64,000 nucleotides of DNA from a bacterium (GTDB taxonomy: Bacteria > AUK180): positions 33,464 to 97,463 of the forward strand of contig JAGLGN010000014.1 in NCBI GenBank assembly GCA_023144005.1. The letters run 5' to 3'. Positions 8,524 through 38,157 of the stretch are shown here, piece after piece. The notes under the pieces were generated by a model. It was not told the origin of the DNA. It made no database searches and saw only the letters and a program-made list of their open reading frames with translations. The first letter of the stretch is position 1; each line of letters opens with the position of its first letter. Both the position numbers and the translations under genes were made by a program.

Positions 8524-8552
8524 ATTATAGCATTTTTCATAATCAATTTCAA
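8524..8552 (-). promoter_or_regulatory. Promoter of the secreted protein - porV - gap - pgk - tpiA - secG operon
   Basis: TTGAAA (8552-8547), a 17-bp spacer and TATAAT (8529-8524) on the minus strand. The predicted leader of about 17 nt carries GGAGG before the ATG at 8501. No other promoter is obvious downstream until tRNA-Leu. The 200 bp between here and 8757 holds nothing else I can identify. Confidence 0.7.
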
Positions 8553-20941: not shown

Positions 20942-21640
20942 ATGAATATCATTACAATATTTTGGAAATCCATTTGGGAGCTAAGAGCAAAGATCCACAA
21001 AGATCCCTTGAGGGCAACAGGAAGAGATCTAAACCCGGAAGTTTATCCCCATCTTGCACAGGAGATCTCTGAGAAACTCCATTTGGTCGAGGGTGATTAC
21101 CTTATTGATATCGGTTGTGCCAAGGGAGCATTAGACCTTTTGCTTTCTACAAAGGTTTCTTCGATTATGGCAACGGATTATTCTCAAAGCATGATAGATT
21201 GCGCAATAATGAGAAATTCTGCCAATAATATTGAGTTCCGGCAAGACAATGGCGAGAAGCTGAATCTCTTTTCACAGAAGTTTAATAAAATACTTATATA
21301 TTCCGTATTTCATTATTTTTCCTCATTAACAAAGGTTAAAAACCTTCTAATTAAAATATTCGAGAAATTGCCAAGAGGTGGAGAGGTTCTCATCGGGGAC
21401 CTACCGGATAAAAATAGAAGGCAATTGTTTCCAAGGAGATATTACTGCGAGCAGAAAGGTATTAAAAGAATAGTCGAATATATTGTCTTTTTTTTATCCT
21501 ATCATCTCTGGCAATGGTTCACTAAGGATTCCCTTTCTGAAATATGTAAACAGATCGGTTTTGAATACAGCTTTCTCCCGCAGGAGACCGAACAACCCAC
21601 GAGCAGAGACAGGTTTGATCTATGGCTGAAAAAGAACTAA
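20942..21640 (+). CDS. Class I SAM-dependent methyltransferase
   Basis: 232 residues. The SAM-binding core is LIDIGCAKGALDLLL (about 54-68, motif I), MATDYSQSMIDCA (about 75-87, the acidic end of beta 2), and the later KILIYSVFHYFSS and PRGGEVLIGDLPDKN. It resembles small-molecule or sugar methyltransferases of glycan clusters. Its ATG follows the -10 box by 7 nt, so it is probably translated from a leaderless mRNA. The acyltransferase gene downstream overlaps it by 19 nt, so the two are co-expressed, divergently from the WbqC operon. Substrate unknown. Confidence 0.85.
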   Translation: MNIITIFWKSIWELRAKIHKDPLRATGRDLNPEVYPHLAQEISEKLHLVEGDYLIDIGCAKGALDLLLSTKVSSIMATDYSQSMIDCAIMRNSANNIEFRQDNGEKLNLFSQKFNKILIYSVFHYFSSLTKVKNLLIKIFEKLPRGGEVLIGDLPDKNRRQLFPRRYYCEQKGIKRIVEYIVFFLSYHLWQWFTKDSLSEICKQIGFEYSFLPQETEQPTSRDRFDLWLKKN

Positions 21641-22674
21641 AACCTCTGGATCCGGCCGGCGAGGATCTATGGAATGACTTCCTGAAGGAAAGAGAGCACA
21701 CTTATTTTCATACACTTAAGTATATGAAATTTATTTGCCAAGTCTACCCTGACTTGAAAAGCGCTTATTCTATCCTGATGAGTGAAGGGGAGGCTCGGGG
21801 AATAATCCCCCTTTTCTACAGTCCCTCTATCTTCTGGGGGAAGAAGATCTCACCGGTTCAATTCAATATGTATGGCGGACCTTTGCTTGACGACCCCGGA
21901 GATATTGATATCGTCGCCAAGGAATTATTCACGCTTTTTCCAAAGAGCACCTATATTGCATTCAGGGATTATTATGGGCGGTTTCCTTCCTCAAGGCACA
22001 ACAGGACGATCAATGCAGACGCTTATTTCACAATCGTTAAATTGAGCAAAAAAGAAAATTTAGCCAAACTGATCTATCGAGAGAGGTTTATTGAAAAGAT
22101 CCGCTCACTTAAGAAAAATAATGCTCTATCATTTCGCAAGATCGGAAAAGATGAACTACATGATCTTTATTGTTTATCCGTAAAATTCTTTAAAAAACGA
22201 TTTGGCGTTTCATCTTATCCTGAGAAGTACTTTGAGATCATTTTAGATACTATCGTGAAAGGTGGAAATGGGGAATTGATCGGTTGCTTCTTAGACAAGA
22301 GATTAATAGCAGGAACATTTTTTATCAAATACAGAAACTCCGCCATCTATATGTGGGGCTGTTACGATCTGGCATTGTCACATTTATCACCGATCGCACT
22401 CTTATTAGACCATCAGATAATTAAATTAGCCTCGGAGGGGTACAAAGAATTAGATCTGGGACAAACCCAAATTGGAAATCAAGGACTTCTTTTTTTCAAA
22501 GAGAACTTAGGCGGTGTACATAGAAAGTTAAATAAAGTGTACATCCCTAAGGCAAAAAGTTTTAGGATACCTGCGGGAGACAACTCGTTTTCTATTGCTA
22601 AAAATGTTTTCCGCGTCTTGCCAGACTGGTTAGTGAAAACCCTAACCCCCCTTATATTCAGACTCTATAGATAG
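21622..22674 (+). CDS. FemAB-like / GNAT-type acyltransferase
   Basis: 350 residues with a double GNAT-like layout. The N-terminal half shows GIIPLFYSPSIFWGKKISPVQFN and GGPLLDD; the C-terminal half shows GNGELIGCFLDKRLIAGTFF, MWGCYDLALSHLSPIALLL and LDLGQTQIGNQGLLFFKENLGG, typical of FemAB/MprF-like and exosortase-associated acyltransferases. These transfer aminoacyl or acetyl groups to peptidoglycan or sugar precursors in the cytoplasm. It overlaps the methyltransferase by 19 nt and belongs to the same two-gene unit. A plausible role is acylating an amino sugar of the surface glycan. Confidence 0.75.
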   Translation: MAEKELKPLDPAGEDLWNDFLKEREHTYFHTLKYMKFICQVYPDLKSAYSILMSEGEARGIIPLFYSPSIFWGKKISPVQFNMYGGPLLDDPGDIDIVAKELFTLFPKSTYIAFRDYYGRFPSSRHNRTINADAYFTIVKLSKKENLAKLIYRERFIEKIRSLKKNNALSFRKIGKDELHDLYCLSVKFFKKRFGVSSYPEKYFEIILDTIVKGGNGELIGCFLDKRLIAGTFFIKYRNSAIYMWGCYDLALSHLSPIALLLDHQIIKLASEGYKELDLGQTQIGNQGLLFFKENLGGVHRKLNKVYIPKAKSFRIPAGDNSFSIAKNVFRVLPDWLVKTLTPLIFRLYR

Positions 22675-22774: not shown

Positions 22775-23926
22775 TCAGTTCTTATCGGCATTGATCGGTT
22801 CCGCCAGGATCTCTTTTGCCAATATCTCACCTACCTTATGTTGACCGGCTAAATTCAGATGATAATCTACTGGATCGTAAAGGTCTTCCCCTGTACTTTC
22901 ATAAGAGCTCCTCAAAACAGGAACGAAATTAAGGAAGTCGATTTGCTTATGCTGCAATACCTTAATGAATTCTGCTACGATAAGATCATCGATCTTAAGA
23001 TCCTGCGGCTCCAGGTCCGGAACGGATTTACAAAAAGAAATATAATCCTGATTTGCCCCTTGAACCTGCATCATCGTGGGCAATATCAGGACTTTCAGTA
23101 AAATATTTTTTTGTCTGCATAGAGAAATGAGGTCATCTAATACCGCGGCATATTTATCAAACCATCTCGCCTGTTCAAGAGTTCTAAGCCATCTCACCTG
23201 CCCGATGTCCTGCCCAAGCATGGGGTTTGAAGAAAAAGTATTTTTCGGAACAAGGCGAAAATATATCATGGCAACCAGATTTGAATGCTCAACAAGCCAC
23301 GGAAACGCTCTCCTTTTGGCCGGTAATATTATGGCTTTGCCATCTATAACTTCCACGCTCGGATAGTGATCATGAAATCCGATAAGATCAACAAGATCAT
23401 TGCCCGTATAAAAAGTAAGCAGCGCCATATCCGGCTTTATAATATCACTGTTCTCTTTCAGAAAAAGGTACATCTGTTGGATAGACCAGCTCAATGTGCC
23501 GGAATTGATGACATTGTACGGGGAATCATCATGCTGGCGATTCAAAATACTTTCGGAAACATTAGGGAAAGTGTCATTTACTTTGCAATTGCCGTCCACG
23601 TGTGAATCGCCCAATACCAGGATGCGATATTCATTTTCCGCCTTTTCTCTAATTACATTTTCCTCTCTCAAGCCCTGGGCATTCGTCCGGTATATATAAA
23701 ACCCTTCATCATATCGTGCGGTCTTTACATGAAGACGCGCGAATTTACTGTGCTTCATCCCATACTCTTTATCTGAAACGACACCCAGTTGATTCACATG
23801 GAAGAATTTACCATCATATTTCATTATATATGATGTGCGGAATAATGTTTCAAGTACAAGAAATAGTAATATCAGGAAACTCAGGATCCGAATGGTAATA
23901 AAAAGGTTTCTTATAAATTTTTCCAC
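22775..23926 (-). CDS. Membrane-anchored SGNH/GDSL hydrolase-like protein
   Basis: 383 residues with one N-terminal membrane helix (about 8-28) and a periplasmic SGNH domain. LVLGDSHVDG places the nucleophile at Ser108. FYTGNDLVDL (about 172-181) supplies the conserved Gly-Asn, and DYHLNLAGQ gives the Asp354/His356 pair. Family members deacylate or acylate glycans, or act as thioesterases. The start is GTG immediately after the comEC stop (TGAGTG), so it is the last gene of the nine-gene operon. Whether it belongs functionally to that operon or to the glycan locus that follows is open. Confidence 0.78.
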   Translation of the reverse strand: MEKFIRNLFITIRILSFLILLFLVLETLFRTSYIMKYDGKFFHVNQLGVVSDKEYGMKHSKFARLHVKTARYDEGFYIYRTNAQGLREENVIREKAENEYRILVLGDSHVDGNCKVNDTFPNVSESILNRQHDDSPYNVINSGTLSWSIQQMYLFLKENSDIIKPDMALLTFYTGNDLVDLIGFHDHYPSVEVIDGKAIILPAKRRAFPWLVEHSNLVAMIYFRLVPKNTFSSNPMLGQDIGQVRWLRTLEQARWFDKYAAVLDDLISLCRQKNILLKVLILPTMMQVQGANQDYISFCKSVPDLEPQDLKIDDLIVAEFIKVLQHKQIDFLNFVPVLRSSYESTGEDLYDPVDYHLNLAGQHKVGEILAKEILAEPINADKN

Positions 23927-26827
23927 TCAGAATTCATGTTGAAGATCCGCGATCTCCATATCGCCAGAGGAATTGCCGGAGGTAAATCTCAGTAATTTGC
24001 CGTCACATATCTTATATCTTACATAACCCACTGAGAGATCATAGAAGTTGGTGCCGGCCTTATCCTTCAGATAACTAAAATCCTTCTGGAATTGAGCTAA
24101 CTCCTTGCCCTTGTTGAAATAATCTATATGAAAAAGCATGTCCATGGGCAATGCGAGATTCAGCATATCCTTGAGTTTGTAGTTATACAGGAAGCGTGTG
24201 GGCATAAGGACCACATCGACCTTATCGAAATACTGCTTGTATGACATCAGTTTATCCACTTCCCCCCTGTCCAGATCAGCGGCTAATAAAAACTGTTTTC
24301 TTGAGATCTCAATACCCTTTTTCTTCAAGATATAGTCCGCTTTGAGTACCATATTATCCTGAAAATAGTCCTCTTTGTCGCTGCTTTCCGGGTAGATAGC
24401 ATATATCTCAAACACATATTCACTATTCCCCACCTTCTTACTCTCTCTTAGAATATAATCACCCGCCTTTACCACGACATGGGGTATTTTGCTGGACATT
24501 AGGGTGTTGCTTACCTTCTGACACGTTTCATATCTGCTTTTTACCCAATAAGCCTGGCCTCTTTCCAGTAAATACTCATTATCAGTAGATTTCAAGAAAT
24601 CTTCATAGCTAGATGCGGATGCTTTTTGCACATCTGTGGGAATATAGACCTTCCCCACGGGGTATTCCCTCAGTATTGTGGTAACCGCCGAGTTATTATC
24701 CTGAGAATAATCCGTCAGGATCAGATCGTCTATACGGTTGATACCGTAAGACATCAAAATGCTCATGACCACACGGTCGGCCTCGTCCCACTCCCTTCTG
24801 TTATAGAGAGAATGCTTACCTGCATTTATCAGCACATTTCTTCCCGAAGGCGTTTTGATGAAAACGACATTGCCCTTTGAAAGGGAAAAGAAGGTTATAT
24901 CAACTTCATTATCCCTTTTTGTGGGTATCAGCAGAAGTATGGAGCCCAGCAGGACAATAGCGATTATGATCGCGGGCAGAAACTTAAATATACGCGCCCT
25001 CTTATCATGTTTCTGTTTGAATACCGTCAATTTATATTTATAGTCAAGCCACTTACTTTTGATATACGGAAGATTGATAATGATAAGCAGCGCCACAAAA
25101 TAGAATATCAGCCCGCCGAAGGTGAACTTCTTCACATACGGATATGGGAAAGTGGTCGAAAAGAAATGCGCGGACTGTATAAAGAGCTTCAACAGCAGAT
25201 AATTAGCGGCATTGATGAACAGTCCCATATATATCCCTACAACGGGTATCAGAGACAGAATTGCCGCGATCATCCCCAATTGGACATTGATGCCGATGAG
25301 GGGTATGGCGATGTAATTGGCGTACATACCCGCAATTGGATATCTGCCAAAATAATATGCGGAAAGCGGGATCATCATTCCCAGCTGTATCGCAAATTGT
25401 GCCGATATGAAGGATATCAGCCAAGGCGGCATCTTTCTGTAGGATGGAGCGGCAAGCTGCTTTTTTTCCTCAAATTTATTGGATAAATACAAAAACACCC
25501 CGGAAGCGGCAAAAAATCCCCACAGAAACAGTGAATTAAAGAAATAGCTCTTGAAGATGATGATAAGCGCGGTGAAGGAGGCGAAAACAAAGCAAGCCGC
25601 CCAAAAGGTATATCCGATCAGATACTTCTTGAAAATATCATCCAGAAACGGCGTGATAAGGACAAGTGATAGCACCGCCCCAAACGATAGAGTAAAGGAT
25701 GCTTCTCTCAATAGAAGCGGGTTCACAAATAATATCATAAGAGCGGCAACGGAAATACCCACCTCGATCGAGGTTCGCAGCCCCTTGCCGGAAAGAACCC
25801 ATGCCATCAGCACGGCGCTATTCATTATTACGGCCCGCAAAGTGGATGGCCGTCCGCCGGTGATTATCGCGAATATCACTAAAAAGAGTATCGTAATAAT
25901 TGCATAAACTCTTCTGGGAACCCCTATCAGTGAGAATATCCCGACAAAGAATATCATAAGGATCGTAACATGAAGCCCCGACACGGCCAGTACATGATTC
26001 ACACCCGCCCTTTTGAACTCATCCTTTATCTGATATCGGGCATCAGGCAGGAAGATCCCGTCCATGCCGTATCTCAACCCCAGGGTAATACCGCCTAAAA
26101 ATGCCGACTCCGGGTATTTCACCGTTCTTCGAATGGTTTTCAGGAATTTCTGTTTGATACCCAATGAGAAGGCGACAAAAGGATTCTTCTTCGTCAGCTC
26201 ATCGGGGGTGATGCGCGACGCATCCTTGAAATACGCAGTATAATATACTCCGGTGCTTTCCAGAAATTTTCTATAATCAAAGCCGCCCGGATTCGTTGCT
26301 TTCTGCGGCCTCTTCAAGTCCGTTTCAAAAGTGATATAGTGCCCGTATGAGAGAAATTCCGGGAATTTCCCCTTCTTGAATGAATAATTAAGAAGTATCT
26401 TGCCCTTTTTCACTTCTTTCGAACGGGCGCCGTTAACTGAGATCTTCAGGGGCTTGACATATACCCGCATCCGATTTTCAAAATACTCGGGTTCTCTGTA
26501 CACATAACCTTCGACCGTTGCGGATATTTTGTCTTCTCCTCCGGTAACGGTCAGTATATGCCCTTTTCTATCGATATTCAGAGCATTGTGTGTAAAAGCC
26601 AATCCCAACACAAAGGGCAAAAGGTAAAAGGCCATCAGCATAGGTATCTTCTTGATATACCCCCAGCGCTTATAAGAATAAAACCCCACTGCGATAGCCG
26701 CGAGAAGAACGACGGCAGAAAGGATGAAAAGAAAAAACGGAGAGGCCAGAGGGAAGACACCGAAACTGATGAGTATGCCGAGGACAAAGAACAATGTAAA
26801 GAGGTAGAGTTTATTTTCCCAATACAT
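23927..26827 (-). CDS. comEC: ComEC/Rec2 DNA channel with a degenerate metallo-beta-lactamase domain
   Basis: 966 residues. Two N-terminal helices, a soluble OB-like domain (about 95-210, with NPGGFDYRKFLESTGVYYTA at 179-198), the competence channel with GVNHVLAVSGLHVTIL (275-290) and some ten helices to about residue 640, then a metallo-beta-lactamase-like domain (about 641-955). ComEC moves single-stranded DNA across the inner membrane during natural transformation. In the C-terminal domain the usual HxDxDH metal motif reads DYSQDN (706-711) and the preceding D-x-G strand reads INAG, so nuclease metal binding is probably lost. The start overlaps the 49-aa gene by one base (TAATG). Confidence 0.93.
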   Translation of the reverse strand: MYWENKLYLFTLFFVLGILISFGVFPLASPFFLFILSAVVLLAAIAVGFYSYKRWGYIKKIPMLMAFYLLPFVLGLAFTHNALNIDRKGHILTVTGGEDKISATVEGYVYREPEYFENRMRVYVKPLKISVNGARSKEVKKGKILLNYSFKKGKFPEFLSYGHYITFETDLKRPQKATNPGGFDYRKFLESTGVYYTAYFKDASRITPDELTKKNPFVAFSLGIKQKFLKTIRRTVKYPESAFLGGITLGLRYGMDGIFLPDARYQIKDEFKRAGVNHVLAVSGLHVTILMIFFVGIFSLIGVPRRVYAIITILFLVIFAIITGGRPSTLRAVIMNSAVLMAWVLSGKGLRTSIEVGISVAALMILFVNPLLLREASFTLSFGAVLSLVLITPFLDDIFKKYLIGYTFWAACFVFASFTALIIIFKSYFFNSLFLWGFFAASGVFLYLSNKFEEKKQLAAPSYRKMPPWLISFISAQFAIQLGMMIPLSAYYFGRYPIAGMYANYIAIPLIGINVQLGMIAAILSLIPVVGIYMGLFINAANYLLLKLFIQSAHFFSTTFPYPYVKKFTFGGLIFYFVALLIIINLPYIKSKWLDYKYKLTVFKQKHDKRARIFKFLPAIIIAIVLLGSILLLIPTKRDNEVDITFFSLSKGNVVFIKTPSGRNVLINAGKHSLYNRREWDEADRVVMSILMSYGINRIDDLILTDYSQDNNSAVTTILREYPVGKVYIPTDVQKASASSYEDFLKSTDNEYLLERGQAYWVKSRYETCQKVSNTLMSSKIPHVVVKAGDYILRESKKVGNSEYVFEIYAIYPESSDKEDYFQDNMVLKADYILKKKGIEISRKQFLLAADLDRGEVDKLMSYKQYFDKVDVVLMPTRFLYNYKLKDMLNLALPMDMLFHIDYFNKGKELAQFQKDFSYLKDKAGTNFYDLSVGYVRYKICDGKLLRFTSGNSSGDMEIADLQHEF

Positions 26828-26976
26828 TATTTTTCTTCCAAAAACCCGTAATACGATTCATTGGACCTGAGATTTCCCTCGATCGTATAATTCTTATCAA
26901 AGGCCAGAACCAGGATCGCGGCAATCGCAATGATAATTATTCCTATTAAAATAAAGGTCTTCTTTCCTTTTTTCAT
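26827..26976 (-). CDS. 49-residue single-helix membrane protein
   Basis: A short gene between the HhH-barrel gene and comEC, overlapping both by exactly one base (TAATG at each end). It starts with MKKGKKTFILIG, has one strongly hydrophobic helix (about residues 8-26) and an exported-side tail of about 23 residues rich in Asn, Glu and Tyr. A GGAG site precedes the ATG. The double 1-nt coupling and the positive-inside start make a real gene likely. No homologue is recognised. A lipid-embedded accessory of ComEC is possible but only inferred from position. Confidence 0.7.
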   Translation of the reverse strand: MKKGKKTFILIGIIIIAIAAILVLAFDKNYTIEGNLRSNESYYGFLEEK

Positions 26977-28964
26977 TAACTTCTCCAGTCAAGATAGAAT
27001 TTGAAAGCCCTCTGCGGAACCGTATTATCAGCCCTTGCCGAATTGTCCTGAATATAATACCTTCTTTTGTACCCTATTTTCAGCTTCAGATTCTTTCTCC
27101 AGAGGTTTTTGCTGTAATCAACAGACCACTCCCGGTATTCCTCTGAGGTGGATGAGTCCGACTTCCTGTAAATATTATTGTCCGTGGATTTAAATGAGAA
27201 CAGGAATGTACCCAGAGCGGGTTTCCAGTTCGCCTTCAGCTGATAGGATGCGTTGGCCTTTCTCTGAGGCAGTGAATGTTCCATATAGGTATTGAAGCGG
27301 TAAACGCCTGTCAGGCGTAATTTCTCGGATAGATTGTAATTAAAAGTCACATAAGTCCTGGTGCTTTTGTCCGATTCGGAATAATCCGTAATATATGAAT
27401 CATTCAAGTCCCTTGCCAGATCGTTATCTTTGTACCGCTGCGTCACCGCCATATCAACGAGCGGTGTTATAGGATATTGAAATTTTACCGAGCCGTCGAA
27501 ATTGGTCTGAAGGGTTGAATAATATCTCCAGATATCCGCTTTGGGAGTGATCTCTAATTTCCCCAATTTTAAAAGCGCATCGAATTTAATGCCCCTTTCG
27601 TTCTGGGCGGAAAGCTCCGCAGGAGATTCATATGTAGCGAATGTATATGAGTAGGGATTTTCAAATTCCCTGTGGAAATCCCTGTAAATAAAATTGATCC
27701 GCGCGGTTTTCTTTTTCATGGTCATCTTCAATAAGAAGCCGTGAGCGCCGGATTCCAATTGCCCGAATTCCGCCTGAATAGCCGATTTTTTAAAAGGAGT
27801 CCACCGCATATTCAATCCCCATACCCATGCATCGAACATGTCTTCAGAGTAATTATTCGGCTTGTAGAGATCAGAGGCATAGATCTCCTTATTATGATAA
27901 ACGGTCATTCCGATAAAATTGTCCTCTCCGCCGATTCGCATATGTCCGCCGAAAATGGTCTTGTTGACATAATTCGGAATGGAAAGAGCGATCGTGTCTT
28001 CGTCGAAATCGGTCTCTGAATACGCCGATTCATCCGCGCTGAAATCAGCCGAACTGACCAGAAGATGCGAATACTGATAGAGCTTGTCCTGTATCTGTGA
28101 CGCGAAGATGAAAATCTCCGCCGGTCCCAGCACCGTTCGCATGCCGGCACCCAGGAGATTCAGATTAAAATCGGAAGTAACATCACTTGAACGGTCTCCT
28201 TTGAAGCCGTAGAGATTTTTGTTATCGGATTCATTAAAGACCACGCCAAGGCCGAAGCCCGCCATGTAATTTCCCGTGATCAATTGGAAGTTCTTTGTAT
28301 TCCAATTTATAAATACCTTAGGCAGGGGCCATATTGTTTTCTTCGGGTCAACTATCACTTCGCCGGGCTGAAGGAAGATCTCGCCGTTTTCATCATAGGT
28401 AACAGGCCCGTCATATTCCTCAAAGCTGTATGTAGCGTATCTGCGTTCCTGAAGAATTCCTATATCCAATACCTTTCCGAGGCGGAAGCGGTACTTGAAC
28501 TGTACATAGGGCGTTTCTTCCGATTTGGTCGTGGAAGAGACCTCGTCCCGGAATTTAAAGTTGAGGTCCGTTTTCCTTTTCAATACCTTCTTACCCTTGA
28601 CCTTCTTTATCTTGACTGGAGGAATGATACGCATAAATCCCTCAACAAAACTGAAGTCGGTACGCCCAAGGATCTTTTTGAGCGGCTTGTCATCTTTAAA
28701 TGGCCGGTTCTTGATGATCTCATTAGCGATCTCAAGGTTTACCTTGGGAAGCCGTAACAGCTCGCTCTTGGGAGCGCTATTGACCTCTATCGGATTTGAG
28801 AAGAGTTCCCAAAGCATAATATACTGCTCTTGATCGATATCTCCGGACTCGTAGAGATCCGCGATCTCGTCTTCCGTAGATATGGGTATCGAAAGATCAT
28901 AATCCTGAGCAAATGCAAAAGAGGCCAAAAACAAAACGATCAGAAATAGTATTCTACCTTTCAT
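26976..28964 (-). CDS. Outer-membrane beta-barrel protein with N-terminal helix-hairpin-helix domain
   Basis: 662 residues. Signal peptide MKGRILFLIVLFLASFAFAQ, then a helical region (about 25-50), an HhH DNA-binding-like domain (IEVNSAPKSELLRLPKVN at about 57-74, then IANEIIKNRPF), a Lys-rich linker (IKKVKGKKVLKRK, about 117-129) and a long barrel-like domain of amphipathic strands ending in AFKFYLDWRS. HhH-plus-barrel proteins annotated as ComEA-like are known in Bacteroidota, without proven function. The second of two adjacent ATGs is preferred because it is 6 nt from GGAGG. It overlaps the previous gene by one base. It may bind DNA at the inner face of the outer membrane. Confidence 0.75.
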   Translation of the reverse strand: MKGRILFLIVLFLASFAFAQDYDLSIPISTEDEIADLYESGDIDQEQYIMLWELFSNPIEVNSAPKSELLRLPKVNLEIANEIIKNRPFKDDKPLKKILGRTDFSFVEGFMRIIPPVKIKKVKGKKVLKRKTDLNFKFRDEVSSTTKSEETPYVQFKYRFRLGKVLDIGILQERRYATYSFEEYDGPVTYDENGEIFLQPGEVIVDPKKTIWPLPKVFINWNTKNFQLITGNYMAGFGLGVVFNESDNKNLYGFKGDRSSDVTSDFNLNLLGAGMRTVLGPAEIFIFASQIQDKLYQYSHLLVSSADFSADESAYSETDFDEDTIALSIPNYVNKTIFGGHMRIGGEDNFIGMTVYHNKEIYASDLYKPNNYSEDMFDAWVWGLNMRWTPFKKSAIQAEFGQLESGAHGFLLKMTMKKKTARINFIYRDFHREFENPYSYTFATYESPAELSAQNERGIKFDALLKLGKLEITPKADIWRYYSTLQTNFDGSVKFQYPITPLVDMAVTQRYKDNDLARDLNDSYITDYSESDKSTRTYVTFNYNLSEKLRLTGVYRFNTYMEHSLPQRKANASYQLKANWKPALGTFLFSFKSTDNNIYRKSDSSTSEEYREWSVDYSKNLWRKNLKLKIGYKRRYYIQDNSARADNTVPQRAFKFYLDWRS

Positions 28965-30442
28965 CATTCACCTCCCTGTCCATTGTCAACAGCTGGATCG
29001 TATTCTCCCGTTTTTATCATATTTCTCATATTCTCAAAGGTCTTGGGGCCTATTCTGGGAACATTCATAATATCCTCTATGTTCTTAAATCCGCCGTTTT
29101 GCTTCCTGTAGGAAAGAATGTTCGCCGCTGTCTTCACTCCTACGCGCGGAAGTTTCTGCAGCTCCGCACTGTCCGCGGAGTTGATATCTATTAGCGGTCC
29201 GCTGTAAGAGGTCTTCGAGGCGGTGGAAGTGGACGAGGAACTGCGTGACGGTACAATTTGAGACGATGACTCATATTTACTGCCAACGGTAATATAGGAC
29301 CGTATTTTTTCAACGGTCTTAGCGCCGATCCTGGAGACATTCTGCAGGTCTTCCACTCTTCTGAACGGCCCGTTCACCTTCCGGTATTCCACTATACGCT
29401 CTGCCGTCTTACTGCCGATACCCGGGATCGCGGATAGCTCCTCCGCATTTGCGAGGTTAATATTTATCCTGCCGTTGATCACCGAGAGTTCGGGTTTGGA
29501 TTCTTTGTTTCCGAGTCCAAAGGCAAAGGTATGTGTGGCGCCCAGCTCCGGATGTACCTTCAAGGCGTATGAAACCGCCATACCGCCACCGTAAATACCG
29601 AGACCGGCAGAATAGGAAAGACGCTCCGAGTGAAGATATTCAATGCCGCCGAATAGAGCAAAGTTATCCGTCATATCATACTTGATGCCAAAATGATATT
29701 CGGAATAGAGGTCCCGTTTAGCCGCGAAATTTTCCAGATATGCGTCATAGTCGGCAAAATCACCGACCGCCTCTTCTATCTCCGCTTCCTCGGCGTCGGT
29801 ATAGCTCCCGAGTCCGTAAGTATGTTTCAGAAACGATGCGGGAATATTTGCGATCAAATTGAAATAAATATTCAATTGTACAAATGGCGTATATGATACC
29901 CCTATGCCGACATCCCTCGCCATGTATTCCTGGCCGATATACGGCGCCGAAACATTTCTGAATCTTGCTCCGAAATAAAGTTCCTGATTTACAAAAAGCA
30001 CCATTCCCATATCCAGGGCAAGTGTGGATGCCGAACCGATCTCATCGATAACGACACTCATATATTTCCCTTTGAAGCCAAGTGCGAAATTAGAGCCCAC
30101 ATTAAAGGCGCCGGCGAATTGTATCTGCTGCTCCGCATACAGCCATGAGCCGAATTTTATAAGGTTCAGGCCCATTGTCATGGAACCGAAGCGCTTAATA
30201 TAATTTGCTGAGGTATTTGCGAGCTCATCCATGCCGTAGAGCCGGGATGTGGTAAAATTCAAATGGACATTCTCCAGATAGGCCAGCATGGCGGGATTAT
30301 TGTATATCGCCTCCGGGCCCATAAGGACCAGATTTGCTCCGCCGGTAGCGAGGTTCAGGGGCATATTCCCCTCAAATTCAAAGGCAGTCCATCCATTGGC
30401 GGCCAGAATGATCGCGCAAACTACTATTATTATTTTTTTCAT
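28964..30442 (-). CDS. PorV-like barrel fused to two ComEA-type helix-hairpin-helix domains
   Basis: 492 residues. Signal peptide (1-19), then a PorV/PorQ-like barrel (about 20-315) opening with LATGGANLVLMGPEAIYNNPAM. Two ComEA-type domains follow: the first (about 327-388) has INLANAEELSAIPGIGSKTA and later VSRIGAKTVEKI; the second (about 419-483) has INSADSAELQKLPRVGVKTA and VPRIGPKTFENM. A Ser-rich linker of about 25 residues separates them. ComEA domains bind double-stranded DNA non-specifically in the periplasm and pull it inward. Fusing two to an outer-membrane barrel would put a DNA ratchet at an outer-membrane protein. It lies 9 bp after the second lamin-tail gene. Confidence 0.85.
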   Translation of the reverse strand: MKKIIIVVCAIILAANGWTAFEFEGNMPLNLATGGANLVLMGPEAIYNNPAMLAYLENVHLNFTTSRLYGMDELANTSANYIKRFGSMTMGLNLIKFGSWLYAEQQIQFAGAFNVGSNFALGFKGKYMSVVIDEIGSASTLALDMGMVLFVNQELYFGARFRNVSAPYIGQEYMARDVGIGVSYTPFVQLNIYFNLIANIPASFLKHTYGLGSYTDAEEAEIEEAVGDFADYDAYLENFAAKRDLYSEYHFGIKYDMTDNFALFGGIEYLHSERLSYSAGLGIYGGGMAVSYALKVHPELGATHTFAFGLGNKESKPELSVINGRININLANAEELSAIPGIGSKTAERIVEYRKVNGPFRRVEDLQNVSRIGAKTVEKIRSYITVGSKYESSSQIVPSRSSSSTSTASKTSYSGPLIDINSADSAELQKLPRVGVKTAANILSYRKQNGGFKNIEDIMNVPRIGPKTFENMRNMIKTGEYDPAVDNGQGGE

Positions 30443-30451
30443 GGCAGCCCC

Positions 30452-33400
30452 CTACATCCTTTTCCCAATGGCAACGACTTCTTTCTTATAAATAGATTTC
30501 GTTTCATTTCTCAATTCGATGTATAGAATATATACACCCATGGGCAGCGGTCGGTTACGGTTATCGTCGCCGATCCATTTCACAGAGAAAGGCCCCGGCG
30601 GAAGAACTGTCTTTTCCGATAATGTTTTTACTTCTCTTCCGGCAACATCATATACGCGCACTGTAAGCACTCCCTCGGAAACAACATGCAGGGAGATCTC
30701 GGTATATAATCTGTTCGGATCGCTGCCGTCATTAACAAAGCTCCTCGGGGAGATCTCGATCTGCGTAATATTGCCTGCGGGGATCTCCGTTTCATCGCAA
30801 GGTCTTCCCATCGTGGGTTCTTCCGTGATCGTCCAATCGGCAAGCGTGTTCGTATCTGTAAATTCCGCATCACGCGTTATAGATGATTCTTCATCCACAT
30901 TATTTGATCTGATGGCATTGGTGGCGGCATAGATCCAATCGTAAATATATCCGCTGTCCGGCTGCTCGCCAAGAGGATAATCGGGGTATTTCGCCATATT
31001 GGGGAAGAATTTGTATATCTCTCCGTCCCAATGATATGCTCCTAATTTGGGATCGGATGAAAAATATACCTCATAGAAATCGCTGTATTCAATATAAGAG
31101 ATATCTATCAATTCTGAAACGACCCATGTCGACGCGGCGGGAACCACCTGTCCGTCAGCTATAAGATCACCGTTCTCGTCAAAGGGGAATATCTGTTCTT
31201 CTGAGTTTCTTTCAGCCCATACAACGGCATCTTTGATATTTCCGGAAAAATCCCGAAGCTCAAGATTTTCATCCGTGCTGGAAAGTGAAAGTTTTGAAAG
31301 ATAGACCGTTAATATGCCGTCACTTCCCGCGGTAAGTTCGCTGTCGCTTTCATTTCCTACGGTGATAATGACAAATTCTCCTGTTTTCAAGGTCGTTCCA
31401 GGCTGAATTATCGCGACTACACTGTCCGTCAGCATGAAACAGCCCCCGACATCTACGCCTGCCCCGGAATTGCCGTCATCCTTGCAATAAAGCTCTATCC
31501 AATCCGGAAATCCAGAAGGTGAGTAAAAGTAAACCTCTGATATCACGATATCCGTTTCGGCGGGCAAGGTATCGATCGGATGGCCGTAACCCGGCGTAAC
31601 GACCAGTGTATTCTTCCAGTCAACTTTATCATTGGTATCCGTATTGAAGTAATCCCTGACAATGGAGCCCTTTGAAAAATCAGAAGAGACACAGTCGATC
31701 TCTTCGCCGTCAACGGGAGAGCCGTAGCCTATATTCCATTGGCCGACAGCAAAGGCTTCTTCAAAATCATCGTCGGACAGTGAACCGCCCTGATCCGCCC
31801 AGCAGACAAGGTCTATCAATTCGCCGTTCGGCGTAAATATACCCATTTGTTCGTCCGAATCGGTTATTCCTGTATCGGCGGTCGTCACAAAATATGATGC
31901 CTTGGTTAGAGGAAGCTCCCAGTCATCAGCATTATCATATATTAACAATCCGTAATCGCCGGTACGGAAAATACCGGTTGAAAGCTTTTTATCGGCACTT
32001 GCATCCAGGTCCGTAATGGAGGCGCGGGTGCCGTAGGTGGATATCGAATCAAGGTCATCTATATAAAAACCCCCAAGATCGATACCGTTTCCATTATTAC
32101 CGTCATCTATCATATAAAATTCAACAAAATCCTCGCCGTATGTCCCGATAGAATCTACTTCGGTAATGAGTATCACCGGGTCTTTTACCGTTATTGACTC
32201 GAAATAATCCGAAACGGAATTACCGGTATCCGAGATCGCATTTGCCTTTTGATCAGCGCCCGTGACCCAGAAACCTATGACCGAAAGATTGGGAATATCC
32301 ACGGTGGAGCCTTTGGTAAGGTCAGCTCCGCCTTTATAGACTAAGGAATTTCCCCATATAATGCCGTCTTCGCTGCCGTCCGCGCCGGAGCTGTAGACAA
32401 GTGTTACCGTACCGGTATCAACAAATACTCCCGTGGAGGTCTTGATCTCATACCATAAACTCAAAGTAGATGTATCTTCAATACCACCCTCTTCTGAAAG
32501 CATCAACTCAAATGATGTTGCTGAAAGAGAAACACGGGGGAAATCGCCCGAAGGGGACATAGAAAGAGGAGCAGGGCCGGTAATATCGATCGGCAAGACC
32601 GTTAGGTCCGCGGAAACAATGCCGTCCACTCCTGTATTTTCCGGTGTTATTTCAATAACTCCCGGAGATAGGCATCCGCCGAAATCAACCGTGCCCTCGC
32701 CATTGATCAGGGTCAGCGCGATCGTGTCGGTGCCTCCCGAAAATTGGCCGGTTCCGGTGGGAGAAGCAGATAGCGTAATATCCAATGTCGGAGACGAGGT
32801 ATAAACAGAGTAATTCTCATCAAGAAGCTTAACCGTGACCGTCGTGGTCTCCGGCGCACCTCCGAAAACTTCTATTCTGGTGGGATATACGAAAGCACGG
32901 AGATTGATAGAGGCCTCGGTAGGCCCGACCGAATTTGGGTGACGGGGCGTACCGTAGATCGGATTACCCAGATAATCAGTGCCGTATATGGTAATTAGGT
33001 CATTATCCGCCCAATTTGAAGAATCGTTGCCGTCCTTTCCGAGAATGATCTTTTCCATGGAAACACCGCCCGATTGGCCGGCGAACCATCCATCAGAACA
33101 GTCCACTTGATCAATGAGATTAGCGGAGCTATCATACAAACGGAGGTTTTCTCCGTCATTTGAAAGTTTACTGTAGCCAAGATCTTCCGAATCACTTCCG
33201 ATATCGGCGATCGCCTGTTTTACCGGCTCAGTAGTGCTTCTGTATTCTATCAGATAATATGCTCCTGATCCGATAGTGGTCGTATTGGCAGTGGTAAGGT
33301 CAACAATTATTCCCCCGCTATCCCAAATATACCATCCGGTAAGATCGATATCGGAACCCGTGGGATTGTAAAGCTCGATCCATTCATACCCGCTCTGGGC

Positions 33401-33511
33401 AATGGTACCGCTCCATGAAAGTTCTGAAATAACAACATCGCCGCTTGAAGCGGAATGTATAGCAAGGGGCAGTATTAAAAGGACTATCAAGAATGTTAGT
33501 ATTTTTTTCAT
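30452..33511 (-). CDS. Secreted lamin-tail-domain protein with C-terminal sorting domain
   Basis: 1019 residues. Signal peptide to about residue 21, then a lamin tail domain (LTD, about 25-195: VVISELSWSGTIAQ, WIELYNPTGSDIDLTGWYI, later RHPNSV). Ig-like modules follow to about 445, then LTD-like repeats (ILITEVDSIGTYGEDFVEFY; IVISEVYFYSPSGFPDWIEL). The C-terminal 95 residues form a FlgD Ig-like/type IX sorting domain (LTVRVYDVAGREVKTLSE, LPMGVYILYIEL). LTDs are immunoglobulin-like binding folds; in bacteria they occur on secreted proteins, often with nucleases or ComEC-like hydrolases. The second of two ATGs (33511) is 6 nt from AGGAG. It is likely a surface ligand-binding component. Confidence 0.8.
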   Translation of the reverse strand: MKKILTFLIVLLILPLAIHSASSGDVVISELSWSGTIAQSGYEWIELYNPTGSDIDLTGWYIWDSGGIIVDLTTANTTTIGSGAYYLIEYRSTTEPVKQAIADIGSDSEDLGYSKLSNDGENLRLYDSSANLIDQVDCSDGWFAGQSGGVSMEKIILGKDGNDSSNWADNDLITIYGTDYLGNPIYGTPRHPNSVGPTEASINLRAFVYPTRIEVFGGAPETTTVTVKLLDENYSVYTSSPTLDITLSASPTGTGQFSGGTDTIALTLINGEGTVDFGGCLSPGVIEITPENTGVDGIVSADLTVLPIDITGPAPLSMSPSGDFPRVSLSATSFELMLSEEGGIEDTSTLSLWYEIKTSTGVFVDTGTVTLVYSSGADGSEDGIIWGNSLVYKGGADLTKGSTVDIPNLSVIGFWVTGADQKANAISDTGNSVSDYFESITVKDPVILITEVDSIGTYGEDFVEFYMIDDGNNGNGIDLGGFYIDDLDSISTYGTRASITDLDASADKKLSTGIFRTGDYGLLIYDNADDWELPLTKASYFVTTADTGITDSDEQMGIFTPNGELIDLVCWADQGGSLSDDDFEEAFAVGQWNIGYGSPVDGEEIDCVSSDFSKGSIVRDYFNTDTNDKVDWKNTLVVTPGYGHPIDTLPAETDIVISEVYFYSPSGFPDWIELYCKDDGNSGAGVDVGGCFMLTDSVVAIIQPGTTLKTGEFVIITVGNESDSELTAGSDGILTVYLSKLSLSSTDENLELRDFSGNIKDAVVWAERNSEEQIFPFDENGDLIADGQVVPAASTWVVSELIDISYIEYSDFYEVYFSSDPKLGAYHWDGEIYKFFPNMAKYPDYPLGEQPDSGYIYDWIYAATNAIRSNNVDEESSITRDAEFTDTNTLADWTITEEPTMGRPCDETEIPAGNITQIEISPRSFVNDGSDPNRLYTEISLHVVSEGVLTVRVYDVAGREVKTLSEKTVLPPGPFSVKWIGDDNRNRPLPMGVYILYIELRNETKSIYKKEVVAIGKRM

Positions 33512-33520
33512 CATATACTC

Positions 33521-34405
33521 CTACCACCGATACCCAAGACCGGCAGATACCGTACCCGGCAATAGCGAGCCGAACCCGTATGAGACATCAAGCTCCAACT
33601 TGTTCAATCCGATCTGAGTGCCGAAAAGAATATTTCTTGTGGTGTCATTCAATATGTCGCTGGCGCCGAATCTCAATCTTATCCCTTTGTTGATATTAAA
33701 AGCTAAGCCCGAATTCAATATCATTGAAGATTCTCTGATGACCGCCTGCGTTAAAAGCGTCATCGCCGCGCCCGCATCACCCATTGTCCATTTATACCGG
33801 AAACCGAGGCCGCCGGATATAGCAGGGAACGCACCTTCTTGTTCAAATTCCAGCTTCGTGCCCCAATTATTTACAAAAAGCCCTATTAGAAGCTTTTTCA
33901 TCTTAAAAGCGAGGCCGAGGTCAACTAAAAATGAATCCGCGGTATATGTATCGATGCGGCTGAAAAGGTATTTTATATTTACACCGGCATAAGTGTTCTG
34001 ACCGATGGCATCTCCGAAAGAAAGCACAAGGCCAAGATCGGAAGAGTGAAATTGTCCGGTAACCGTGCCTATCTCGTCCCGGGAATCCTGATATCCCCAA
34101 TTGCCGTAAATGGTGGAAATGCCGACATTGCCGAAATTCTCAAGATATACGGCAGTCGATATCAGAGAGACATCCATCTCCTCATAATATTTTCTATAGC
34201 TTGTTTTAAAATAATTCCAGCCCGAGATCGGCATCAATGCCGGATTGACCAGCATAGAACCGAAATCATCAATATCAACGCCTAGGACGGAACCGCTGCC
34301 GCGTGCTCCCGAAGTCGGGTCAATATTAAAGACATTGGAAGAGCCCATTGCGGCAATGCAAACCGAGATCAAGAGAGCCATTATGAATATTACAGATCTC
34401 TTCAT
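33521..34405 (-). CDS. PorV/PorQ-family outer-membrane barrel protein
   Basis: 294 residues. Signal peptide (about 1-20), then the family opening with SGARGSGSVLGVDIDDFGSM and LVNPALMPISG (about 32-63), alternating strands, and a terminal GTVSAGLGYRW with an aromatic last residue as in outer-membrane barrels. It sits between two lamin-tail proteins carrying C-terminal sorting domains, 3 bp after one and 6 bp before the other, so it is probably the outer-membrane carrier or anchor for them, as PorV is for T9SS cargo. SD: GAGGT about 6 nt before the ATG. Confidence 0.78.
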   Translation of the reverse strand: MKRSVIFIMALLISVCIAAMGSSNVFNIDPTSGARGSGSVLGVDIDDFGSMLVNPALMPISGWNYFKTSYRKYYEEMDVSLISTAVYLENFGNVGISTIYGNWGYQDSRDEIGTVTGQFHSSDLGLVLSFGDAIGQNTYAGVNIKYLFSRIDTYTADSFLVDLGLAFKMKKLLIGLFVNNWGTKLEFEQEGAFPAISGGLGFRYKWTMGDAGAAMTLLTQAVIRESSMILNSGLAFNINKGIRLRFGASDILNDTTRNILFGTQIGLNKLELDVSYGFGSLLPGTVSAGLGYRW

Positions 34406-34408
34406 GAT

Positions 34409-37400
34409 CTACCTCACCACCGAAAACTTGACCATCGCGGTAAAACTATCCGCCTTTACCAGGCCGAAATATATACCCGCGGGGATCTTTCTCCCATATC
34501 TGTCCTTCAGGTCCCAAGTTATCTGATGGAATCCCGCGGATAGCACGGCATCGTGTATCTCTACCACCTTTCTCGCATCCAATGTCAAAATGGTCAGCGT
34601 TACATTGGATTCTTCCAGTATGTTTATCTCGAATGTTATCGTGTCAACATCCGGAGTTGCCGGATTCGGATATGGGGTATATATATTATTCCCGTCAAAT
34701 GAAGTGTCAATGAAATACTCCAGCAGATCAACGCAGGTGAATTCCACTATATGCTTTCCCGCCTCGGTGGACAGGGTCAATGTAAATGATGCCGAACCAT
34801 CTGTGCCGGTAAGGGCGGAAGAAGGAGCGATAGATGCACCCAGGGGAGTGTCAATAAGCGAGGTCGCGACATCCGCTCCATACAATCCCAAGCCGGTATC
34901 AGAAGTGATATATACCAAGATTTCTCGATCCTTCCCAGGGGCGGTGTGCGGGTCTTCCGCGGGGTCAAATGTCATTACAGCGGGAGAAAGGACATCAAAT
35001 TCAGGCGAATTCAGCTCAACAAGATCAGTACCATTCTCTAAAATACTTATCCCGAATTCATATACACCTTCCGCATCAGGGAAATTATAACTATTGAAAT
35101 CTATGCTCACCGAGCTTGCCGCGGTAATGCCGGCAATGGTTATGGTAGAGCCGGAAACCGTATAGGCAACCGTATTGGAAGCATCAACGGTTACTGTCAG
35201 ATTTGCTAATGTTGGTTGAGTAAAGCTTGAATGAACAACGATATACAGATCATCGTCCCCATCCAGCTTGGGATATCCTACCGTATAATCAATACCAAGA
35301 TCTCCATTGCCGCCCTGGCAAAGTGGGACATTTGGGGTTTTTGAAATACCATAAGAGCCGGAAACCGCAGAGTCCACATTACCGAAAGGCGAGGAATTTC
35401 CCGACTCATCAAGGGCTTTCACTGAAATATAATATGTCGTGCCGGCAGGCAGCATTGTCAGTATATGCTCCTCAGCCTGAGCCGGCAGAAGCGGTGTTAT
35501 ACCTGAAGTATCGTACTTATCCGAGGCGATGAAGTCCGCGTCATCAGTGATCGGGGCGGTGGAATAAGCGATCTCATAGCTATCGCATTGAGATACGCCC
35601 AGCCCGTTCTCGCCCACCGCGGTAAAGTTAATTCTGATCCCGCCGATAGTGGGATGGGAATATGCGGCAAAATCATTGATCACCGAGGGCGGGCGATTAT
35701 CGATGGTGTTGAAAGAAAAGAGGTAGTCGCCGCCGGGAGCGCCGTCATCGTCTCCGTCAAGGCCGTTGCCTGAAATATCCATAGCTCCGGAGTAAACGGT
35801 AATATCATATGAAGTATCTTCCGAAAGCGGAGCCGTAAGGGTCATCGTCAATGTCTCATTTCCGGCATCCCAGGAAAGCGTATATGCTACAGCCGGGATT
35901 ATCTCAAGCGATAAATCCACCGATACGGTATTCATTTCCTCTGAGAATGTGATAACAATATCGGTCGCTGTATCTATATTCACTCCCGAATCGATCGGAG
36001 ATGTGTATAGAACGGTCGGTGAGGCATAATCTCCACAGCTTGTACTGTAATTTGAGTTTTCAGCACCGGGTGTGGCATTAAGAGGATTATTGTCGGCATC
36101 AAGGCCGTTTATTGTAATTCCGTCATTGGAGCCCCAGTTACCGGCGACCGAGCCGCCGACACATGGGTCAATTCTCTCCATTGAATAATAAGCGGGTGAG
36201 CCGGTACCGCCGAACCATCCGGCGCCACAATCGACCAGATCAACTGTCACATCGGATGAATTCTTTAAAGTTATCGTCGCGCCGGTGTTACTCAAGCTGA
36301 GAGATGTATCCACAAATCCGCCCGCAACATCATTCACGGTATCCTCGGAATTTTCAATAAGATAATATCCGAAAGCGGGAATAGTTCCCGAAAGTGTTTC
36401 TAAAATAAACCCGACTCCCTGAACATACCATCCCGTAAGGTCGATCCCCTCACCGGTCGGGTTGTATAACTCTATCCACTCATCGGAAGAAGAATGAAGT
36501 GTGCCACCGAAGGCAACTTCATTTACAACAACCTTTCCGGTCATTGACTCATATACTTCGATCGATGGAGAAGCTCCGATCGCTGAAAGCGTACCCGTAC
36601 CTTTCGATCTTACGGTAAAGGCATATGTTCCAAGTGTGTCGCACATAGCGCCGGGCGAACCCAATGACATATCTCCATAAATAAATATCAGCGTATTTCC
36701 GGTATCAAGCGTAGTAATATCCGCTATTATCTCCCAACCGGTGGTCTCATTTCCTGTAATAGACGCGATCGAGGCCACGGCATCACCGGAAAGGGAAAGA
36801 TACCCTTCTGATGCCGGAGCGCCGTCCTGCGGCTGTGACCAGTTCGCGGGAATATATAGCGAGACCTGCCCGCCCGCCATATCAAGCGATGCGGTATAGA
36901 TCACATTTACACTCTGATGATTATCCTTGAGAATATTAGAGGGATATGCGACCGCTGTACCGGTGCCGTCACCATATTGCGATGTCTGAAAATTGAAGGT
37001 ATATGTATCTCCGCCCGAATCATCCACTGAGGCGGAATCAGCCAGCGTATTGCCCGCTACATCCGCAACTACGGTCTTATCGATCTCAATATAATATGTC
37101 GTTCCGAATGACAGCGTATTATGTGTGATCGTAAGTGTCTGTGTAGTATTTGACCATGTATATCCTTCTCCTCCGGGGGAGGGTGATATAATTATCCCCA
37201 AAGTGGAGGTATCCGCCATTTCCTCATCAAAATCAATCGTAATATCCTGAATCGGATTGACCGCGGAAGCGCCGTTGACCGGGGCCGTCGCGGTTATAGT
37301 CGGGGGTGTGGTATCCGCCGCTGCGCCGCCGCAGGTTGAGACTTCAACTGAATTGGGCTGTCCTGGAGTTCCATTGATAGAGGGCTCGCCGTTTATAGTG

Positions 37401-37933
37401 ATCCCGTCATTTGTCGCCCAGTTAGAGCAAACATCGCCGGGCGAACACGGATCGATCCTCTCCATCGAATAAAAACCCGCGGCTACACCTGCGCACCAGA
37501 CCCCTGAATTGTCATCAGCCGTATCTATCACATTACCGGTACCGTCCTGACCGTCGTATAAGATGATACTGTCTCCACCTACATTCATTCCAATTGTAGC
37601 GTCCCAGATCTCAATGGTAGCTCCCGAAGTGAATACTACAGCATCATTTGCATATATCAGATAGCCCTTGGCGGGAATAATAGTGGTATTATTTCCATCG
37701 GCAGCAGAAATATTCAGGACAACCCCGGTATCGGCACCATAAATTGACCAGGCGGCTATATCGATCGGAGCATCTGTGGTATTATAGAGCTCTATCCACT
37801 CATCACTTGTCGAGCCGGATGTACCCGCCCATGCGATCTCATTGATAACAACATCACCGGGAGTCGCAGCTTCCACGATCTGCATAGATGTCAAAAGCAA
37901 GGCAGCAATAAATATGATCGTTAATTTCTTCAT
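34409..37933 (-). CDS. Giant secreted protein with two lamin tail domains and C-terminal sorting domain
   Basis: 1174 residues. Signal peptide about 1-22; LTD 1 (about 25-200, DVVINEIAWAGTSGSTSDEW); SbsA-type Ig-like domain (about 210-320); a beta domain (330-475); LTD 2 (about 480-650, VVVNEVAFGGTLHSSSDEW); a second Ig-like domain (655-770); a fibronectin III-like domain (775-880); further Ig-like modules; and a FlgD-like sorting domain (about 1085-1174, ending SFTAMVKFSVVR). Both LTDs share the distinctive tail SMERIDPC...NDGITING...TPG with paired cysteines. It is probably displayed on the surface. Its start overlaps the DUF3006 stop by 4 nt. Ligand unknown. Confidence 0.82.
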   Translation of the reverse strand: MKKLTIIFIAALLLTSMQIVEAATPGDVVINEIAWAGTSGSTSDEWIELYNTTDAPIDIAAWSIYGADTGVVLNISAADGNNTTIIPAKGYLIYANDAVVFTSGATIEIWDATIGMNVGGDSIILYDGQDGTGNVIDTADDNSGVWCAGVAAGFYSMERIDPCSPGDVCSNWATNDGITINGEPSINGTPGQPNSVEVSTCGGAAADTTPPTITATAPVNGASAVNPIQDITIDFDEEMADTSTLGIIISPSPGGEGYTWSNTTQTLTITHNTLSFGTTYYIEIDKTVVADVAGNTLADSASVDDSGGDTYTFNFQTSQYGDGTGTAVAYPSNILKDNHQSVNVIYTASLDMAGGQVSLYIPANWSQPQDGAPASEGYLSLSGDAVASIASITGNETTGWEIIADITTLDTGNTLIFIYGDMSLGSPGAMCDTLGTYAFTVRSKGTGTLSAIGASPSIEVYESMTGKVVVNEVAFGGTLHSSSDEWIELYNPTGEGIDLTGWYVQGVGFILETLSGTIPAFGYYLIENSEDTVNDVAGGFVDTSLSLSNTGATITLKNSSDVTVDLVDCGAGWFGGTGSPAYYSMERIDPCVGGSVAGNWGSNDGITINGLDADNNPLNATPGAENSNYSTSCGDYASPTVLYTSPIDSGVNIDTATDIVITFSEEMNTVSVDLSLEIIPAVAYTLSWDAGNETLTMTLTAPLSEDTSYDITVYSGAMDISGNGLDGDDDGAPGGDYLFSFNTIDNRPPSVINDFAAYSHPTIGGIRINFTAVGENGLGVSQCDSYEIAYSTAPITDDADFIASDKYDTSGITPLLPAQAEEHILTMLPAGTTYYISVKALDESGNSSPFGNVDSAVSGSYGISKTPNVPLCQGGNGDLGIDYTVGYPKLDGDDDLYIVVHSSFTQPTLANLTVTVDASNTVAYTVSGSTITIAGITAASSVSIDFNSYNFPDAEGVYEFGISILENGTDLVELNSPEFDVLSPAVMTFDPAEDPHTAPGKDREILVYITSDTGLGLYGADVATSLIDTPLGASIAPSSALTGTDGSASFTLTLSTEAGKHIVEFTCVDLLEYFIDTSFDGNNIYTPYPNPATPDVDTITFEINILEESNVTLTILTLDARKVVEIHDAVLSAGFHQITWDLKDRYGRKIPAGIYFGLVKADSFTAMVKFSVVR

Positions 37934-38157
37934 ATATTTCCTCTCGAACCCTCATTGAGTTCATCTTTTATTTTTTTCATTTTCTCCAGACGGGCCTTCG
38001 TCTCGTCCGCGTCAATGGAAATGTCAACATTCAGAACATCTCCTTCCTTCACCCCTTGCGGAAGATGCGCGATGGGGATGAGCATTTCTCCGCCGCGGTC
38101 AAGGACCACAACGGCAAGCTCTTCTTCAAATCTGTCTATAACTGCTGTGAGAATCAT
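37930..38157 (-). CDS. DUF3006-family small protein
   Basis: 75 residues matching DUF3006: AVIDRFEEELAVVVLD (about 5-20), IPIAHLPQGVKEGDVLNVDI (about 27-46), then a charged helix. It is a small beta-barrel-like cytoplasmic protein of unknown function. In other bacteria DUF3006 genes are often found beside ComEC-like metallo-beta-lactamase proteins, so its appearance at the head of an operon that ends with comEC supports a functional link. A GGAGG site lies about 6 nt before the ATG. The next gene overlaps by ATGA. Confidence 0.78.
   Translation of the reverse strand: MILTAVIDRFEEELAVVVLDRGGEMLIPIAHLPQGVKEGDVLNVDISIDADETKARLEKMKKIKDELNEGSRGNI

Follow-up and report, generated by a model that had tools for sequence, protein, structure and literature searches.

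The window analyzed here is a 64,000-nucleotide stretch on a 97-kb contig from a Candidatus Mcinerneyibacteriota genome (G000; 2.67 Mb, 96% complete). Reading of its open reading frames revealed an operon of nine tightly packed minus-strand ORFs at positions 22775-38157, designated g1 to g9 in the order of transcription (Table 1). Genes g1 and g2 overlap by 4 nt, and gaps of 3, 6 and 9 nt separate g2 from g3, g3 from g4 and g4 from g5, respectively. In the 3' half, g5 and g6 overlap by 4 nt, g6/g7 and g7/g8 overlap by 1 nt each, and g9 follows g8 with a gap of 0. An earlier note made from the sequence of this DNA had described nine minus-strand genes spaced by 0-9 nt or overlapping by 1-4 nt, and the new reading of the ORFs reproduced that arrangement. 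The gene names given there agreed with the domain searches for g1 to g8, whereas g9, called an SGNH hydrolase, had no family match in either Pfam or NCBIfam and was named from motifs.

Table 1. Genes of the operon, listed in the order of transcription, with their positions in the window.
Gene	Product	Position	Strand	Evidence
g1	DUF3006 protein, 75 aa, first gene of the unit	37930..38157	-	PF11213 1.1e-20
g2	Secreted surface protein with LTD x2, Big_5, fn3 and C-terminal sorting-type domain, 1174 aa	34409..37933	-	LTD 1.3e-28
g3	PorV/PorQ-family-like outer-membrane barrel, 294 aa	33521..34405	-	NF033709 1.1e-21
g4	Secreted LTD protein (LTD x2) with C-terminal FlgD_ig, 1020 aa	30452..33514	-	Pfam domain search
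g5	PorV-like barrel with two C-terminal ComEA-type HhH domains (predicted), 492 aa	28964..30442	-	HHH_3 1.9e-46
g6	HhH-barrel, N-terminal HhH followed by long beta region, 663 aa	26976..28967	-	HHH_3 1.1e-5 (weak), family alignment
g7	49-aa single-TM peptide, founder of a ComEC-linked family	26827..26976	-	One TM, no Pfam/NCBIfam family
g8	ComEC, 966 aa, DUF4131 and Competence domains, MBL without metal-binding motif	23927..26827	-	Domain searches, motif reading
g9	SGNH-like protein, abuts ComEC	22775..23926	-	Motifs GDSH and DYH, read by eye

The operon is flanked by unrelated genes on the opposite strand, namely a methyltransferase at 38429-39385 and a methyltransferase with a GNAT-type protein at 20942-22674. 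Scans for promoters and terminators returned nothing above the expectation from shuffled sequence. Genes near the operon include those at 15416-17941, for a protein resembling O-antigen ligase, and at 17964-20177, for a membrane protein resembling spermidine synthase, and a frame of 703 aa (12268-14379) that gave no Pfam match. Another frame of the window, of 1127 aa (5169-8552), had no Pfam match either.

The same gene order was searched for in related genomes, as had been proposed, and g1 to g8 were found in identical order and strand in a genome of the same family (G004), whose g4 is 58% identical to that of the window, and fragments of the unit were recovered from three further genomes. 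In G003, one contig runs from the end of g5 to g8, and a second covers the stretch from the end of g2 through most of g5. In the other family of the class (a class relative is also recorded as Candidatus Mcinerneyibacteriota), the end of g4 to g8 is present in G006, and two contigs of G005 contain the end of g6 with g7 and g8, and the end of g4 with g5 and g6, respectively. The maintenance of gene order across these relatives indicates that the arrangement is more than chance, and g1 to g8 can be regarded as an old unit that excludes g9. No g9 was found after ComEC in G003, G005 or G006, and G004 encodes a 23% identical g9-like protein, but beyond a gene on the opposite strand. The SGNH hydrolase was ruled out as a ninth operon member because it is not conserved with ComEC, so that the unit suggested in the earlier note is retained as eight genes instead of nine. 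A genome of the same genus (G001) lacks the operon en bloc; this was dropped as evidence of loss because the operon flanks are missing as well and the absence may be an assembly gap.

Genes g2 to g6 encode predicted surface and outer-membrane components. The C-terminal domain of g2 scored 23.8 bits against TIGR04183, over the cut-off of 23, and that of g4 scored 13.9 bits, under it. For g3, the match to NF033709 (77.8 bits) was under the curated cut-off of 90, and g5 had no match to this family. The match of g5 to TIGR00426 reached 124.3 bits, over the cut-off of 53.1, and the HHH_3 match of g6 remained at 25.9 bits, under the cut-off of 27. The structural model of g5 (mean pLDDT 67) had PorV chains (8gl6_F and 6h3i_F) as its best fold matches, and we read this protein, with moderate confidence, as a predicted PorV/FadL-type barrel with two ComEA domains. 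The model of g6 was poor (mean pLDDT 57.6) and mainly beta. According to these models, the HhH domains of g5 and g6 would be carried on outer-membrane-type barrels, unlike the small ComEA that is inner-membrane-anchored or periplasmic. A search of the window's genome for SprA gave no match, and the control genomes gave none either.

Searches of 386 genomes with g6 revealed distant relatives in many phyla, including 38 anchored loci outside the class. PorV-like barrels accounted for 17 of the 218 genes within 2.5 kb of an HhH-barrel and 2 of the 353 genes beyond that distance, and LTD proteins for 8 and 2 genes, respectively; about half of the 38 loci had none of these partners. Matches of the g6 profile to columns 377-441 in frames of 840-880 aa, seen in many genomes, were rejected as HhH-barrels; the same frames have an HhH match upstream and are possibly DNA polymerase I. 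Where the module is present, its typical order is LTD protein, barrel and HhH-barrel, nearly touching and on the same strand (G289, G190, G214 and G090), and most of the LTD neighbors carry a C-terminal FlgD_ig, as g4 does. The module often has no ComEC or nuclease nearby. The earlier note had held that finding these genes unlinked in other genomes would speak against its reading; the surface genes do occur apart from ComEC, but they then stay together as a module instead of being scattered.

Genes for ComEC-type MBL, DUF3006, ComEC or membrane ComEA were detected near some of the modules (G100, G123, G244, G372, G214 and G289), and DUF3006 also adjoins stand-alone ComEC-type MBL genes in G372 and G244. 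In the module of G318, a surface protein with DUF5689 and an OB-fold match replaces the LTD protein, and G334 combines LTD with a weak DUF5689 match (L185, L194). In the Pfam searches, g2 and g4 of the window carried LTD and no DUF5689, which was found only in the related modules of these two genomes. Two further sets of such genes were observed. A second, ComEC-free set in G003 (L147:1-3432, contig C41) consists of an LTD protein, a PorV-like barrel and a small HhH protein. In G100 (L135:406-19998), an LTD/ComEC-type MBL fusion is accompanied by two barrels, HhH proteins and an HhH-barrel, next to genes that, named by eye, resemble a type II secretion or type IV pilus operon.

The LTD domain is itself expanded in the window's genome, where roughly ten proteins carry it. 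Sites of LTD genes include C2:19508-29425, C35:89308-94590 and contigs C6, C13, C20, C30 and C36, and the frame on C2 encodes 4433 aa with many LTDs. Since these genomes use LTD widely, as a general surface domain in expanded number, it does not by itself point to DNA.

These observations bear on a first alternative, in which the LTD, barrel and HhH-barrel proteins form a module for surface display or biofilms, with extracellular DNA or some other polymer as its ligand, that shares the comEC transcript without any part in import. In type IX secretion, surface cargo is carried by PorV-like proteins, and the PorV fold match of g5, the use of LTD as a general surface domain in roughly ten proteins of the genome and the lack of ComEC in most genomes carrying the module are all consistent with such a function. 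We nevertheless consider it unlikely, given that the order with ComEC is fixed through the class, that the barrels themselves carry HhH/ComEA domains, that MBL, DUF3006, ComEC or membrane ComEA genes lie near several independent copies of the module, and that DUF5689 is linked to transformation in Riemerella (PMC8459023).

The last gene of the conserved unit, g8, was the sole ComEC identified in a search of the window's genome. It matched the Pfam domains DUF4131 (OB; 2.9e-24) and Competence (2e-38), both over cut-off, and scored 159.7 bits against the NCBIfam equivalog TIGR00361, under the cut-off of 190.05. The signatures of the Competence domain are retained. No Lactamase_B match was obtained with Pfam, and the MBL domain reads LTDYSQDN where an HxHxDH-type metal-binding motif is expected. 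This loss extends to the relatives of g8. The MBL nuclease motif was kept in none of the 47 related ComEC loci scanned in the collection, and its first histidine was present in 0 of 35 alignable clade members, compared with 20 of 21 control ComECs. In a FastTree analysis of 87 sequences, in which the position of single long branches is unreliable, a single branch with an SH-like support of 100 set the 51 long ComECs apart from the other sequences. The ComEC MBL domain therefore looks dead, as judged from its motifs, in the whole clade.

Members of this clade are labeled as Mcinerneyibacteriota, Kiritimatiellae, Verrucomicrobia, Lentisphaerae, Chlamydiae, Elusimicrobia, Muiribacteriota, Ca. Ozemobacter, Hydrogenedentota, Caldiserica, UBP18 and NPL-UPA2, a total of about ten phyla by the labels of metagenome bins, single ones of which may be wrong. 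Around the clade ComECs, HhH/ComEA proteins were found at 17 loci and PDDEXK proteins at 13, and stand-alone ComEC-type MBL proteins also adjoin relatives of g8.

Several loci of this collection have further features of their own. A long MBL-dead ComEC and a second ComEC-like protein share one locus in L087 (5907-15626), where the second protein has an intact MBL motif, and also in L072, L074 and L088. In G024 (L038:7556-12400), a secretin of 1614 aa, which combines AMIN and Secretin_N with HhH domains at its C-terminus, is encoded upstream of NDK, a g7-type peptide, a long ComEC and proteins with HhH and MBL domains, with a PilM-like gene near; this fusion is a candidate DNA-uptake secretin with a built-in DNA-binding tail. 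At L050, L054, L059, L060, L065 and L085, which are mostly from Kiritimatiellae, the peptide and the long ComEC are preceded by genes for a membrane protein with a TRAM domain and for a nuclease-related (NERD) protein.

The loss of the MBL active site from the entire clade, together with the occurrence of another ComEC in some genomes (with an intact motif in L087) and of several Competence-domain proteins in G024 and G035, could also mean that the long ComEC has changed its role (e.g., to DNA export or another substrate) and imports no DNA, but this is very improbable for a protein that is the only ComEC of the window's genome, keeps the Competence-domain signatures and has competence-type genes as neighbors.

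The 49-aa peptide g7, which had merely been listed in the earlier note, turned out to be the most specific part of the system. In a scan with a profile built from six seed peptides, a g7-type peptide preceded the clade ComEC in 38 of the 39 loci whose contig reaches far enough, the exception being NPL-UPA2; two of the 38 matches had a weak score, but the right place and motif, and the spacing was larger at a few loci. Searching 386 whole genomes, some of which had contributed loci to the seed alignment, with a 21-row alignment gave 24 g7-type matches in 20 genomes. Twenty of these lie directly before a ComEC frame and two before a PDDEXK frame, and the remaining two look like chance. The family alignment has one invariant Asn and three nearly invariant positions, namely a Gly within the membrane helix and two aromatic residues. 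None of the 21 family members matched Pfam or NCBIfam. The g7-type peptides thus represent a genuine family that accompanies the long ComEC clade, and their small size would hide them from annotation. The positive N-terminus suggests an N-in/C-out topology that would place the tail, with its conserved SN..YY, in the periplasm, and g7 is probably an assembly or gating subunit of this type of ComEC.

A candidate nuclease that could act in trans is encoded in many of the clade loci, where a TM protein of ~300-350 aa with a ComEC-type MBL fold lies a few genes after ComEC. Several of these stand-alone MBL proteins have an intact motif (e.g., HPHSDH...HHGS), and some of those in Elusimicrobia are without the motif too. 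In the window's genome, a second locus on contig C24 (L129:7215-17864) encodes a comEA of the usual membrane kind, with a TM and two HhH domains. It is followed by a UvrD/Rep-like helicase, a 75-aa TM protein and a secreted MBL protein fused to four HhH domains with an intact THPDADH...HHGS motif, and then by pheS and pheT (named by eye) and a PDDEXK/Cas4-like protein of the family that adjoins long ComECs at 13 loci. A match of this kind was found in all seven class genomes examined. The helicase is a possible stand-in for ComFA, and weak UvrD-helicase matches were also seen at ComEC loci of Elusimicrobia.

Elsewhere, the window's genome encodes DprA, which the earlier note had listed among the usual partners that are not in the window, three secretins and four PilT-family proteins, all over cut-off. 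DprA protects incoming strands for recombination and was found in every genome of the class, although G006, which is 72% complete, gave just a single weak match. Another outcome that would have counted against the earlier reading was a complete comEA-comEC-pilQ set located elsewhere together with missing channel residues in this ComEC; no second ComEC was found in the genome.

DNA taken up through such a system might serve mainly as food or as a source of phosphate instead of transformation, in keeping with the prominence of nucleases (MBL, PDDEXK) in the linked loci and with the anaerobic sediment-type origin given in the record titles of several relatives; the presence of DprA throughout the class argues against this, and we rate it as a slim chance, noting that sequence hardly separates the two uses since both would employ the same uptake machinery.

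Altogether, DNA uptake appears to be the likely role of the locus, because a conserved unit contains the sole ComEC of a genome that also has a candidate nuclease locus in trans, DprA, secretins and PilT proteins, and because some related modules share DUF5689 with a protein essential for transformation in Riemerella. On balance, we favor the interpretation that g1 to g8 form the envelope part of a natural DNA-uptake (competence) system. The capture and uptake of DNA suggested previously thus stands as the best reading, also considering the competence-type neighbors of related ComECs. Against it, the pilus genes of the genome could make g5 and g6 unnecessary for uptake.

In the mechanism that we propose, the LTD proteins would be exported, anchored on the cell surface by the PorV-like barrels, and may bind DNA there. 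Double-stranded DNA arriving from outside would then be bound, irrespective of its sequence, by the HhH/ComEA domains of g5 and g6, which are predicted to be periplasmic, and be pulled into the periplasm through or beside these barrels. The type IV pilus machinery, components of which the genome encodes, may or may not assist in this step. The inner-membrane ComEA and the secreted MBL-HhH4 protein, both encoded at the second locus, may then take over the DNA and degrade one strand, and the remaining strand would pass through ComEC, as expected from its family. The MBL domain of ComEC, which has lost its motif, may persist because it guides the DNA or offers a surface for docking. The peptide g7, the constant partner of this ComEC type by gene linkage, may contribute to assembly or gating with its conserved tail in the periplasm.

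More tentatively, the wider distribution of these genes may reflect an undescribed DNA-import envelope machine of many uncultured phyla, in which LTD or DUF5689 proteins, a PorV-like barrel and an HhH-barrel form an outer gate and a ComEC of the MBL-dead clade works with a separate nuclease and an obligate g7 subunit. If this is true, natural transformation would be widely encoded in phyla known only from metagenomes. In the literature searched, which covered few subscription journals, nothing relevant was found on LTD with ComEC, on LTD with DNA uptake or on a small protein of ComEC, and no description was found of the g7 family, the MBL-dead clade or the LTD/PorV-like/HhH-barrel module. The peptide g7 in particular offers a simple, testable new partner of ComEC. 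Competence systems as such are already known, as is the combination of an inactive ComEC nuclease domain with a separate nuclease, for which the pneumococcus is the precedent (PMC8579336).

Compared with the PorV and PorQ proteins of type IX secretion, the unit shares the predicted fold of g5, the family match of g3 and the cargo-like C-terminal domain of g2. It differs in that g3 is below the curated cut-off, g5 has no family match and g5 carries ComEA domains. The components of canonical Gram-negative competence (type IV pilus, PilQ, ComEA, ComEC, ComFC and DprA) are represented in the genome by secretins, the PilT family, DprA, ComEA and ComEC. In contrast to the canonical system, the ComEC of the window is linked to outer-membrane barrels bearing HhH domains, has an inactive MBL site and a small membrane partner, and the MBL nuclease is a separate HhH fusion.

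In Streptococcus pneumoniae, the C-terminal domain of ComEC is thought to be inactive and strand degradation is carried out by EndA (PMC8579336). The window's system resembles this arrangement in its inactive ComEC C-terminal domain and in the assignment of strand degradation to another, candidate, protein, which differs in being a ComEC-type MBL fused to ComEA domains and not an EndA-type endonuclease. How the non-transforming strand is removed when the C-terminal nuclease of ComEC is inactive has been stated to be an open question (PMC8579336), and the separate MBL-HhH protein is a candidate answer to it.

The nearest experimental anchor is Riemerella anatipestifer, in which the DUF5689 protein RA0C_RS04920 and its operon neighbor RS04915, a predicted outer-membrane barrel, are each essential for transformation, which also requires the HhH protein RS02645, ComEC, ComF, DprA and RecA (PMC8459023). 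The passage of DNA across the outer membrane in such bacteria is so far a speculative model (PMC8459023), to which the cross-phylum LTD/PorV-like/HhH-barrel module may offer a candidate answer. The two systems are alike in combining a secreted surface protein, an outer-membrane barrel (predicted by the authors for Riemerella), a periplasmic HhH protein and ComEC, and the DUF5689 domain of RS04920 also occurs in HhH-barrel modules related to that of the window. They differ in that the window has LTD in place of DUF5689 and that its genome also has type IV pilus genes, so the comparison is best taken as an analogy, based on a single domain and a single architecture that both have in common, and not as homology of the whole system.
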